Of a DNA stretch of 64,000 nucleotides, positions 2-36,272 are shown piece after piece. Positions within the stretch are counted from its first letter, which is position 1; every line of letters begins with the position of its first letter. The stretch is from Gemmatimonadota bacterium (GTDB lineage: Bacteria; Gemmatimonadota; Gemmatimonadetes; Longimicrobiales; Gaopeijiaceae), in assembly GCA_016873995.1 (NCBI GenBank), contig VGVR01000001.1, forward strand, positions 1 to 64,000, given 5' to 3'. The position numbers and the translations under genes were made by a program. Under the pieces are notes generated by a model that was not told the origin of the DNA, did no database searches, and saw only the letters and a program-made list of their open reading frames with translations.

Positions 2-103
2 CTCTCCCGTCGCATCATGACCTATATCCACCGCTACAACGACGACCCCAGGCCAATCAAGTGGACCTACGATGACCCCAGCCGACACATCCGCGTCGCT
101 TAA
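2..103 (+). pseudogene. IS630-family transposase, 3' end only (cut by window edge)
   Basis: Only the last 33 codons and the TAA stop are visible. The translated tail contains RYNDDPRPIKWTYDDPSRHI, the kind of basic/aromatic ending (YN..P.P..W.Y.DP...I) seen at the C-terminus of IS630/Tc1-type DDE transposases. The catalytic residues lie upstream of the window, so I cannot say whether the copy is intact; it is listed as a pseudogene only because the format has no partial-CDS type. It sits 184 nt upstream of an export operon whose expected ATPase gene is missing, so the insertion may have altered that locus. Confidence 0.6.
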
Positions 104-16524: not shown

Positions 16525-16530
16525 AAAAAT
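16525..16530 (-). terminator. T-tract terminating ffs
   Basis: Directly after the closing stem of the SRP RNA the minus strand reads ATTTTT, so the terminal RNA helix plus this U-run forms an intrinsic terminator. It also separates ffs from the dnaX leader. Confidence 0.75.
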
Positions 16531-16626
16531 GCCCCAGGCGACCCGCAGCGACGATCACCGCACTTACCGCTGCTGCCTGCGGGGCCCTGACGGGATTCGT
16601 GAGCTTTCGCCCTGCGGACCTGGGGC
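16531..16626 (-). ncRNA. ffs: small signal recognition particle RNA (4.5S type)
   Basis: A 96-nt RNA with the SRP signature: GTCAGG on the 5' side of the helix 8 internal loop and AGCAGC on the 3' side, joined by GCC/GGC around a short apical loop. The ends pair perfectly (gccccagg at the 5' end with cctggggc at the 3' end), then a second helix (ccgcag with ctgcgg). A T-tract follows and a good promoter precedes it. The position just upstream of dnaX is a familiar one for ffs. The apical loop (CCGCA) is not a standard GGAA tetraloop, which is the only odd part. Confidence 0.88.
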
Positions 16627-32166: not shown

Positions 32167-33138
32167 TTACTCTTTGTCAGTCGAAACTTCCTCGAACAGC
32201 TCGGTCACCGACTCGTTCGAGTGCACGTGGTCGATCGCCTTCGCCAGCAGGTCGGCCACCGACAAGACTCGAAGAGTACTGAACCGCTTGTGCTCCGGCA
32301 CCTCGATCGTGTTGGTCACGACCATCTCTTCGAGCGGCGCATCGCGCAGCCGAGAGACCGCCTCGCCCGAGAAGAGCGCGTGGGTCGCGGCGGCGTACAC
32401 CGCTCTGGCGCCGCGCTCTTTCAGCGCGTACACCGCGTTCGTGAGCGTGCCAGCCGTGTCCACCATGTCGTCCATGATGAGGCACGTCATCCCCTCCACA
32501 TCACCCACGACGTTCAACACTTCGGACAGATTCGCCTTCGGCCGGCGCTTGTCGATGATGGCGAGGCTCGCGTCCAGCCGGCGCGCCGTCCCCCGCGCCA
32601 TCTTCGCCGAGCCCACGTCGGGGGCCACGATCACCAGGTCCTTCAACCCGAGGCCCCGGAAGTACCTCGTGATGACCGGGGCCGCGTAGAGGTGGTCCAC
32701 CGGGATGTCGAAGAACCCCTGGATCTGATGCTGGTGGAAGTCGATGGAGATGACGCGATCGGCGCCCGCCGCGACGATGAGGTTCGCCACCAACTTGGCC
32801 GCAATCGAGACACGCGGCTGGTCCTTGCGGTCCTGACGCCCATAGCCGAAGTAGGGGATCACCGCGGTGACGCGGGCGGCCGAGGCACGATGGGCCGCGT
32901 CGATCAGGAGCAGCAGCTCCATGATGTTCTCGGCCGGAGCCGGCGTGGACTGCACGATGTAGACGTCGCGGCCACGCGCATTCCGGTCGATACGCACGAA
33001 GATCTCGCCGTCCGAGAACTGCTTGACCGTAGCCGCGTCGGGCGACTTGCCGATCAGCTCCCCGATCTCCTGGGCCAGGGGGCGATTCGCCCGCCCGGTA
33101 AGGAGGAGGAGGGGTCCTCGGGCGTAGGTGTCGTCCAT
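32167..33138 (-). CDS. prs: ribose-phosphate pyrophosphokinase
   Basis: A 323-residue PRPP synthase transferring pyrophosphate from ATP to ribose-5-phosphate. Landmarks: NRPLAQEIGELIG, KQFSDGEIFVRI, YFGYGRQDRKDQPR (flexible catalytic loop), DFHQHQIQGFFDIPVDHL, and the PRPP loop IMDDMVDTAGTL. ATG 33138 is the family start; the frame is open much further upstream but that part is unrelated and includes the palindromic element. Confidence 0.96.
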   Translation of the reverse strand: MDDTYARGPLLLLTGRANRPLAQEIGELIGKSPDAATVKQFSDGEIFVRIDRNARGRDVYIVQSTPAPAENIMELLLLIDAAHRASAARVTAVIPYFGYGRQDRKDQPRVSIAAKLVANLIVAAGADRVISIDFHQHQIQGFFDIPVDHLYAAPVITRYFRGLGLKDLVIVAPDVGSAKMARGTARRLDASLAIIDKRRPKANLSEVLNVVGDVEGMTCLIMDDMVDTAGTLTNAVYALKERGARAVYAAATHALFSGEAVSRLRDAPLEEMVVTNTIEVPEHKRFSTLRVLSVADLLAKAIDHVHSNESVTELFEEVSTDKE

Positions 33139-33236
33139 GACGTTGGCTGGAGGCCGGATCGGGGGCCAGGCTGCGGAACAACAGCCCGCAAAGTTAGAAA
33201 GCGCGCGGGGGATGGTCAACGCGAGATCGTTCCCCC

Positions 33237-33412
33237 CGGAGGGTGCGGTGCCCCCATCGTCGGGGGCGCCGGCAGGCACGAGTCGGGGTGTCACGCCCCC
33301 ATCGTCGGGGGCGCTTCGCTCCAGATGCTTCGCATCTGAAGCCCCTCCTCCGGGGGCATGACACCCATCCTTCCGACCGCACCTGCCCCTCCTCAGGGGC
33401 ATCGCACCCTCC
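33237..33412. repeat. nested palindromic intergenic element with four related hairpin units
   Basis: Four copies of a unit GGGTG(T/C)(C/G)(A/G)(C/T)GCCCC followed by a GGGGC arm occur here, two on each strand, so the array is itself an inverted repeat. Outer arms 33241-33254 and 33396-33409 match 13 of 14; inner arms 33286-33300 and 33352-33366 match 14 of 15. Each unit folds into its own hairpin (gccccc/gggggc at 33250-33267 and 33295-33312; gcccc/ggggc at 33341-33357 and 33385-33400). A central 7-bp hairpin lies at 33322-33338. It occupies most of the 314-nt gap between prs and the secreted-protein gene; the rest shows nothing else. Confidence 0.75.
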
Positions 33413-33452
33413 CCGGGGCCGACTGCGTCGAGGGACGCGCGGTAGGAAGGCT

Positions 33453-35243
33453 CTAGCGGGCCACGACCCGGAACGTCCTCCGGGTCACGGCGTCCGAACG
33501 CCCCGGGGCGCGTACGGTGAGCACCACGGCGTACTCCCCCGGGTCGAGCTCCGGGAGGGCGAGGTCGAGGTGGCGAAAGAGCACGCACGGGCGCTCGGGA
33601 GCAGGCTCCTGCCAGGCGAGGCGCATCGAAGCGGGGCGCGCGGTGAGCCGCAGCGCCTCGCCGAGGCGGCGCAGGAGGCCCCGGCCGGCGCGCTCGACGG
33701 ACACCTCGAAGTCCAGGGTCTCGTCGCGAAAGCCGAGTCCGGACACCTCCCAGGCGATCGCGAGGCTTTCCTCCGGCCGTATCTCCGGCCGCGCAAGCGC
33801 CGACGCGAGCGCCGCTTCGAGCGACGTCGGCGTCCGGTCCATAGGCTCGAGCAACAACACGTCGGAGAGCGTGGCCACATCCGAAGGGGTCGGCGATCGC
33901 TCGTAGCCGGTGCGCAGCCTCCCCGCCCTCCGCCGCGCCGGGCTCCAGCTCTCGGCCGAGATCAACCACGCGCCGGCGGGCAGGTCGATCATGAGTGCGC
34001 CGGTCGCGGAACCAGTCTGCTGTGCCGCCACGCGCTCACCCCCATCGACGGGCACCGCGAAGAGCCCGATGCGGTCGGGGAGGTCCGCCTGGTCGCCGGC
34101 ATCCATCCAGGGGCGCGGGTGATCGTGCTCCGCGTGGAAGGTCGTGTCCTCGGGGAGGTCATGTGTGGCCACGACCACGACACGCTCGCCCCGCGGGAAG
34201 AAGGCGAGCTGCCCGTCCATGGGCAGGAGCACCGGCGCATACGGTGGCGCGTATAAGCTTCTCGGCAGCCCATGCTCCGCGACGAGGTCCTCGGGCGTCG
34301 CCTGGGTCGGGTCCGCCAGCACAGACCCGCTCGGTAGATAGTCCCTCCCTTCCTGCTCCTTGTGTCCGGTGACCCCGAATGGCGCGCTCGGAGTCGAGCC
34401 ACGGGTGCGCTCCCAACCGACCTCCCAACCGTGACGCACGGTCAGCTCCTCGAGGTCCCTCCCCCAGCGAATCCGGTACGGATTGCGGGCACCGTCCTTG
34501 AGGGTGGCCACAGTCCAGCGCGCGAAGTGCGCGGTCATCCGGTCATTGCCATCGACGAGATAGAGCGGGTCGGACAGCCACCAGAGGCGGTCGAGCAACA
34601 CGTCGAGCGTCCCGTCGGCTGCAGTCACGCCGGCCCCGAGGACCCGGCGCGCCTCGCGGTCCACGGCCCGTTCGGGCACGCGCCACTCGAGCGCGAGCTC
34701 GGGGTCCATGAGCGCGAGCGAGCGCTCGAACGCGCCCTCGGCCTCGCCGTAGCGAAGGAGCGCGTGGAGCGCCAAGCCCTCGAGCGCCGCACACCACCAC
34801 GTGCTCGCACCACTGGCGCAGCCCAAGGCCGCCTCGAGCGCGGCGCTCGCGTCTCCGGCCTCCACGCGGTACCAGACGCGCTGGCCGAGAACCCAGTCGT
34901 CGGTGGGAATGAGCTTCTGCAGGGAGTCGAGCCCGTGAAGCAGCTCGGCACGGAGAGCGACCACGTCTTCGGGCTCAGGTGTGGGGATCCATTCACCTTC
35001 CCCGAACCAGGTGCAGAACCGACGCACGACTTCGTCGCAGGGCCCGCCGCCGGCGCCAAACGTGAGGGGGAAGTACCGCTCCCTGGCGCGCTCGAACCTG
35101 GCCTGGAGCGACCGTGCAGCGCCGAGCGCATCCCCCGGCTCCGCGGCGACGTCCACCGTGTCCTCGCCCGCCACCACCGCCTGCCCCGACGCCGCCGCCG
35201 GGCAGACCGCGAGGACCGCGACGAACCACCTCCAGAAGCGCAT
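33453..35243 (-). CDS. secreted protein of unknown function
   Basis: A 596-residue protein with a clear signal peptide (MRFWRWFVAVLAVCPAAASGQ). The first half has helical, TPR-like stretches with Cys and Trp pairs (GCASGASTWWCAALEGLALHA) and a segment LWWLSDPLYLVDGNDR that is reminiscent of the N-terminal region of GWxTD-type proteins; the second half is beta-rich and ends in a domain resembling an extracellular sandwich (GEYAVVLTVRAPG). I do not recognise a characterised family. The start codon lies only 3 nt behind the 3' end of tRNA-Gln, leaving no space for a ribosome site. Confidence 0.75.
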   Translation of the reverse strand: MRFWRWFVAVLAVCPAAASGQAVVAGEDTVDVAAEPGDALGAARSLQARFERARERYFPLTFGAGGGPCDEVVRRFCTWFGEGEWIPTPEPEDVVALRAELLHGLDSLQKLIPTDDWVLGQRVWYRVEAGDASAALEAALGCASGASTWWCAALEGLALHALLRYGEAEGAFERSLALMDPELALEWRVPERAVDREARRVLGAGVTAADGTLDVLLDRLWWLSDPLYLVDGNDRMTAHFARWTVATLKDGARNPYRIRWGRDLEELTVRHGWEVGWERTRGSTPSAPFGVTGHKEQEGRDYLPSGSVLADPTQATPEDLVAEHGLPRSLYAPPYAPVLLPMDGQLAFFPRGERVVVVATHDLPEDTTFHAEHDHPRPWMDAGDQADLPDRIGLFAVPVDGGERVAAQQTGSATGALMIDLPAGAWLISAESWSPARRRAGRLRTGYERSPTPSDVATLSDVLLLEPMDRTPTSLEAALASALARPEIRPEESLAIAWEVSGLGFRDETLDFEVSVERAGRGLLRRLGEALRLTARPASMRLAWQEPAPERPCVLFRHLDLALPELDPGEYAVVLTVRAPGRSDAVTRRTFRVVAR

Positions 35244-35246
35244 GGA

Positions 35247-35317
35247 TTGGCCCGGGTGGATTCGAACCACCACCGCCGGTTCCAAAGACCGGTGTCCTGC
35301 CATTAGACGACGGGCCA
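35247..35317 (-). tRNA. tRNA-Gln (anticodon TTG)
   Basis: A full cloverleaf: acceptor tggcccg/cgggcca, D-arm closing with GGAC, anticodon stem ccggt/accgg with loop CTTTGGA (anticodon TTG), a 4-nt variable loop and T-stem ggtgg/ccacc with TTCGAAT. U1-A72 is typical of tRNA-Gln. The CCA end is not encoded (TCC follows), so the CCA-adding enzyme encoded at 40934 is needed. Confidence 0.95.
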
Positions 35318-35390
35318 GCGAGACCATCCTACCCGAGCCCGGGGGGGCCGTTCAAGGCCCTGGCCCTGTCGCAGCTTGTACGCTGGACGC

Positions 35391-36272
35391 TCAACCCACG
35401 GCGGGCGCGGGCAGCCGCTCCAGCGTCCGCGCGGCCCGGCATGGCCATCCCAGCTGCTGCGTGAGCAGGCCTGCAGCCCGCGCGGCAGCGTCCCGGCTCG
35501 CGAACATCCCGAAGACGCTGGAGCCGCTCCCGGACATCATCGCGAACGTCGCACCGGCCGACGTGAGCGCCCCGAGCGCACGCCCCACCTCCGGGTGGCG
35601 GCCGACGATGATCGACTGGAAGTCGTTGGCGGCACACGCAGCCACGTCCGCCCAACCGCGTGGCATCGGGGTCTCCCCCGCCGGCTCGAGCGTCCCGCCC
35701 CTTCTCGCAGCGGCCAGCGCCGCATACGCCCCCGCGGTGGCGACGTGCACCGGTGGAGACACGATCACCAGGTCCGCGGACGGAAGCGGGCGCAGTGGAT
35801 CGAGCCGCTCCCCCCGGCCCCGTCCCCTGGCCAGCGGGCTCTCCCCGAGGAAGAACGGCACGTCGGAGCCGAGCACCGCCGCCGACTCCGTGAGTCGCGC
35901 GTCGTGAGCCCCGACGCCGAGCAGGAACGCCAGGCAGCTCAGGACCGCTGCGGCATCCGACGAGCCCCCACCGAGGCCGGCGCCGGCGGGCACATGCTTG
36001 ACCAGCGTGATGTCGACGCCGTCCACGAGGCCGAAGTCGGCCGCGAACCGCTCCGCAGCGCGATAGGCCAGGTTCTCCGTGACGGGGCCCACGTCAGCCC
36101 CCGACACCTGGAGGCGGATGCCCGGCTCGCCGAGCCTTACGGACACCTCGTCTGCGAGGTCGATCGCCTGGAAGAGCGTATCGATCTCGTGGTAGCCGTC
36201 CACGCGACGCCCGAGCACGCGCAGGCGGAGGTTCACCTTCGCAGGCGCGGCAACCCGCGCGGTAACGCTCAC
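35391..36272 (-). CDS. ispE: 4-diphosphocytidyl-2-C-methyl-D-erythritol kinase
   Basis: A 293-residue GHMP kinase of the MEP isoprenoid pathway. Motif I: PAKVNLRLRVLGRRVDGYHEIDTLFQ; ATP motif PAGAGLGGGSSDAAA; C-terminal MMSGSGSSVFGMF. The ATGA overlap at 36269-36272 couples it to the upstream flippase-like gene. Confidence 0.95.
   Translation of the reverse strand: MSVTARVAAPAKVNLRLRVLGRRVDGYHEIDTLFQAIDLADEVSVRLGEPGIRLQVSGADVGPVTENLAYRAAERFAADFGLVDGVDITLVKHVPAGAGLGGGSSDAAAVLSCLAFLLGVGAHDARLTESAAVLGSDVPFFLGESPLARGRGRGERLDPLRPLPSADLVIVSPPVHVATAGAYAALAAARRGGTLEPAGETPMPRGWADVAACAANDFQSIIVGRHPEVGRALGALTSAGATFAMMSGSGSSVFGMFASRDAAARAAGLLTQQLGWPCRAARTLERLPAPAVG

Follow-up and report, generated by a model that had tools for sequence, protein, structure and literature searches.

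A tRNA-Gln gene three nucleotides ahead of a secreted-protein gene in a Gemmatimonadota bacterium probably yields a transcript processed to a near-leaderless mRNA

The window analysed here is the whole 64,000 nucleotide stretch of DNA from a Gemmatimonadota bacterium. Its minus strand carries a tRNA-Gln(UUG) gene followed by a long gene for a secreted protein (Table 1). ARAGORN, Rfam and the sequence itself placed the junction as ...CCCGGGCCA-A(35247)-TCC-ATG(35243-35241), with TCC at 35246-35244, and the 3-nt spacing claimed in an earlier sequence-only reading of this DNA is real. The 596-codon open reading frame from this ATG opens with MRFWRWFVAVLAVCPAAASGQA, and inspection by eye agreed with the earlier view that this is a good signal peptide. 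The next in-frame ATG, GTG or TTG is the GTG at codon 23, beyond the hydrophobic stretch, and no later start preserves the signal peptide. The window protein itself had no match in Pfam and NCBIfam, TIGR04514 (GWxTD domain) included. TIGR04514 was matched at E 0.01 or better by 3 of 28 homologues and a TPR model by 1 of the 28, and a profile built from the 28 homologues matched designed TPR proteins at about profile positions 145-180. The likeness to GWxTD domain proteins lies in those three homologues and the difference in the window protein's own lack of a match, and the protein is most aptly described as distantly related to GWxTD-domain proteins, with a part that resembles TPRs. Downstream on the same strand lie prs and rplY, and a promoter of its own is possible for prs, given TTGACC-17-TAACTT seen by eye ahead of the gene. 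The interval between the secreted-protein gene and prs (window 33180-33450) holds repeated palindromes of the type CCCCCGACGATGGGGG. The upstream neighbour is presumably ispE, a name that we took from gene order and the GHMP kinase domains. Elsewhere, the window encodes a bacterial small SRP RNA (16528-16626, minus strand).

Table 1. Features at the tRNA-Gln junction, in window coordinates
Feature	Position	Strand	Basis or remark
prs, ribose-phosphate pyrophosphokinase, next gene downstream	32167..33138	-	Pfam
Secreted protein gene, 596 aa; best called a distant GWxTD-domain relative with a TPR-like part	33453..35243	-	
Part coding for the signal peptide, about 20 codons	35184..35243	-	by eye, using a signal peptide cleavage rule
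TCC, entire spacer from tRNA to start codon	35244..35246	-	predicted 3-nt leader after predicted RNase Z cleavage
tRNA-Gln(UUG)	35247..35317	-	ARAGORN and Rfam (65.4 bits); no encoded CCA; discriminator A at 35247
-10-like hexamer TAGGAT, 8 nt ahead of the tRNA	35326..35331	-	below the threshold of the consensus scanner
-35-like hexamer TTGAAC of the tRNA-Gln promoter	35350..35355	-	pattern conserved in relatives
ispE-type GHMP kinase, upstream neighbour	35391..36272	-	GHMP kinase domains

A homologue of the secreted protein was found in 53 of the 59 genomes searched, a list that includes the window genome. Of 154 genomes of the order, 81 matched a tRNA pattern; their tRNA-Gln loci, together with others, made up 105 loci, with some places represented twice (L011 = L032; L031 = L103). 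ARAGORN confirmed tRNA-Gln in 86 of these and the remaining 19 were excluded from the junction counts. Of the 86 loci, 36 showed the order tRNA-Gln, homologue, prs and many others end before prs would be reached; in G126 and G127 prs lies directly behind the tRNA with the homologue absent there. Downstream sequence reached 120 nt or more in 77 unique junctions, of which 50 had a homologue within 300 nt of the tRNA and 27 had none. The gap from tRNA to start was 3 nt in the window genome (G000), 5 nt from the discriminator in G004, 31 nt in G002 (a genome of the same genus as the window genome), 45 nt in G132, about 58 nt in G028 and more than 500 nt in several genomes of genus g26. The comparison of this junction across related genomes, suggested as a check by the sequence-only reading, thus showed the order of tRNA-Gln, secreted-protein gene and prs to be widespread in the family but with a gap that runs from 3 to more than 500 nt. 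With such variation we rejected the idea that the family as a whole keeps a 3-nt junction; what is conserved is the gene order, of which the short leader is a locally extreme form and not the rule.

Gaps of 5 nt or less were observed in one clade (G000, G003 and G004) and in two separate lineages, G033 and G137. On a prs tree the short gaps required 3 changes, at least 2 of which were forced by well-supported branches. Two of these five cases are weaker. G003 has the same TCCATG junction, but frameshifts break its gene, which may therefore reflect either an assembly error or a pseudogene, and in G137 a TTG 54 nt downstream is a possible start. The proteins of G000 (3 nt) and G004 (5 nt) are only about 57% identical. 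Among the 50 unique junctions in which a homologue lies within 300 nt, 6 had an ATG 0-6 nt past the discriminator as compared to 2.7 expected from the local ATG frequency. This close ATG was in frame and open in 4 of the 50 as compared to 0.9 expected, an excess that is merely mild as two of the four are close relatives. When the phylum sample was scanned for a Gln-like tRNA followed by a close ATG, a scan that covered only tRNAs whose 3' half is Gln-like, 6 of 395 genomes had the pattern, all from this family and one of them (G009) out of frame. Among the 47 tRNAs of the window genome, tRNA-Gln(UUG) alone was followed at a few nucleotides by a convincing long gene. The open reading frames close to tRNA-Val(CAC), tRNA-Pro(UGG), tRNA-Pro(GGG) and tRNA-Leu(CAA) were set aside, their translations showing by eye either spurious-looking starts or better-fitting later ones. 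A trigger-factor-like gene of this genome, named by eye, starts 34 nt behind tRNA-Leu(UAG) (L127) without a clear Shine-Dalgarno site.

A sigma70-like promoter, TTGAAC-18-TAGGAT, precedes tRNA-Gln, and in close relatives its spacing to the tRNA is 7-8 nt. Of 78 unique upstream 70-mers from relatives, 39 contained a loose form of this promoter (TTGnnn-15..19-TAnnnT), as compared to a mean of 1.5 in shuffles and 3 of 210 control windows. Neither a promoter nor a terminator was detected by a consensus scan of 32900-35500, which is stricter than the conserved loose pattern. The position of the hexamers puts the predicted transcription start at about 35318-35320. As the 3-nt gap has no space for a separate promoter and the promoter ahead of the tRNA is conserved, the transcript most likely begins a few bases from the tRNA, and tRNA-Gln would most likely be almost the entire leader of the secreted-protein transcript. 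These observations, together with the lack of a detected terminator, support the earlier proposal that the two genes share one transcript, and tRNA-Gln and the secreted-protein gene very likely form a tRNA-mRNA operon.

The genome encodes RNase Z (335 bits, over the cut-off) and the window contains a gene of the CCA-adding enzyme type (PF01743 at G000:C1:41789-42145). As judged by acceptor-stem pairing, 45 of the 47 tRNAs of this genome have no encoded CCA, and T or CT directly follows the discriminator in 40 of the 47. tRNAs without encoded CCA are expected to be cleaved after the discriminator. With RNase Z, the CCA-adding enzyme and so many tRNAs without CCA, a cut after the discriminator would be expected at tRNA-Gln, leaving an RNA that begins 5'-UCCAUG. 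The sequence-only reading had proposed release of a 3-nt-leader mRNA by RNase Z-type cleavage. The part on cleavage gained support, as the enzymes for an exact cut after the discriminator are present, but the 3-nt leader is not conserved and most relatives would have leaders of tens to hundreds of nucleotides. Of the routes by which this mRNA would be released, RNase Z cleavage has the most support. In Propionibacterium acnes, described as lacking an obvious tRNase Z, 5' ends of downstream cleavage products were mapped near most tRNA 3' ends, that of a tRNA-Gln included (PMC3848588).

Translation initiation was assessed using the 60 window genes, for which genes and starts were picked by a simple codon model so that the Shine-Dalgarno counts are rough. 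Sites of at least 5 bases were found at 9 of the 60 chosen starts as compared to 41 of 801 internal start codons, and sites of at least 4 bases at 25 of the 60 as compared to 136 of the 801. No Shine-Dalgarno site was present ahead of the ATG of the secreted-protein gene. This is ordinary, and only weak evidence for a near-leaderless mRNA, because most window genes are without one; for the same reason a ribosome site within the tRNA, which the earlier reading had considered necessary, is not needed. In the predicted processed mRNA the 5' end folded weakly, its initial 14 nt being unpaired, and 197 of 200 shuffled versions of the 60-mer folded at least equally well. We defined an mRNA as near-leaderless if its 5' end and start codon are less than 8-10 nt apart, against which the leader predicted from the sequence is 3 nt. 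Translation of this RNA is probable.

Taken together these data suggest a model that we consider, on balance, the better supported one. The tRNA-Gln promoter would produce one RNA that starts no more than a few bases from the tRNA and continues into the secreted-protein gene, a step to which the sequence points strongly. The tRNA would be excised by RNase P and RNase Z. From the enzymes present and the missing CCA we infer that RNase Z would cut directly behind the discriminator, so that the mRNA begins with UCCAUG, and the ribosome would then initiate at the near-leaderless AUG without a Shine-Dalgarno site. The locus would thus probably make a tRNA-mRNA transcript that is processed to a near-leaderless mRNA. 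A stronger form of this model, in which the tRNA is the whole 5' leader in the G000 clade, RNase Z cleavage turns on the AUG and secreted-protein output is coupled to tRNA-Gln maturation as tRNA punctuation in a free-living bacterium, is tentative and we regard it as doubtful.

The tRNA promoter could instead simply leak into the gene, with the short-leader mRNA hardly translated and the tight packing a result of neutral spacer loss. Passive read-through of this kind would agree with a gap length that varies freely over the family and with the mild excess of in-frame close ATGs, but G000 and G004 have kept the frame and the signal peptide despite their wide divergence, which argues that the protein is made from some start, and we consider this explanation rather unlikely. 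It is improbable that the mRNA comes from a promoter inside the tRNA, or from the direction of ispE, and is translated while carrying all or part of the tRNA. The ispE-type gene does lie upstream on the same strand, but no sigma70-like site was found by the scan and a folded cloverleaf would mask the region ahead of the AUG. By far the least probable is a longer protein translated from an upstream in-frame ATG inside or before the tRNA. The frame of the secreted-protein gene is indeed open through the tRNA as far as the ATG at 35327, but the signal peptide suits the later ATG, the 3' half of tRNA-Gln is by its nature stop-free in all three frames, and, counted from the tRNA, homologues in relatives occur in each of the three frames. 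The open frame across the tRNA therefore carries no meaning, and we rejected coding through the tRNA.

Mitochondrial mRNAs have leaders that are short or absent. In mitochondrial tRNA punctuation, tRNAs lie between reading frames and their excision by RNase P and RNase Z frees the mRNAs (PMC11469412, citing Ojala et al. 1981). The tRNA-Gln junction shares with this system a tRNA that abuts a reading frame (here at 3 nt), an RNase Z in the genome together with a tRNA without encoded CCA, and, as predictions, release by excision and a short leader. It differs in being one junction on a bacterial chromosome, with predicted cleavage and ordinary bacterial ribosomes. As the arrangement is neither general, with a single convincing case among the 47 tRNAs of the genome, nor conserved, given the range of gaps in relatives, we did not assign it to tRNA punctuation, which it would resemble in its working without being a member of that class. 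Bacterial tRNA-mRNA cotranscripts include tyrT-tpr and thrU-tufB. Another, yifK-argX-hisR-leuT-proM, is parted by processing (PMC3879156), and the tRNA-Gln locus would share with such cotranscripts a tRNA and a protein gene on one RNA with a separation by processing that is here predicted. In the yifK operon as described there the mRNA lies ahead of the tRNAs, whereas here it lies behind the tRNA at 3 nt. Release from a tRNA cotranscript by RNase Z has likewise been proposed for the archaeal Tko-sR44 (PMC4247193), although the downstream RNA freed there is a small non-coding RNA and here would be an mRNA. Bacterial mRNAs have been counted as leaderless at leaders of less than 10 nt (PMC4681348) or of 5 nt or less (PMC6448022). 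The predicted 3-nt leader, the AUG start and the lack of a Shine-Dalgarno site are shared with these mRNAs, but in the available text of both papers the short leader arises from the transcription start whereas here it would arise from tRNA processing. Our literature search, for which subscription papers were largely out of reach, found no report of bacterial mRNA release through tRNA 3' processing.

Translation of the processed RNA, if it occurs, would make this a natural example of a near-leaderless bacterial mRNA that owes its 5' end to tRNA 3' processing instead of to a transcription start, and a bacterial counterpart to mitochondrial mRNA release. The gaps of 3, 5, 31 and 45 nt and longer in relatives offer a ready series for the effects of leader length and tRNA processing upon initiation. 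In the Baikal genome (L032 1831-3500, L011) the homologue is split by frameshifts, from either an assembly error or a pseudogene. In genus g25, L003 starts with an ATG where the sister genomes L096-L099 have a leucine codon (CTN), so the start there must differ or be non-standard. In genus g12 (L019, L034-L043) a homologue lies about 30 nt after tRNA-Gln with an apparently strong Shine-Dalgarno site, AAGGAGG, followed by ATC; most of these genomes have no ATG, GTG or TTG at the expected start, suggesting a possible conserved non-standard start codon.
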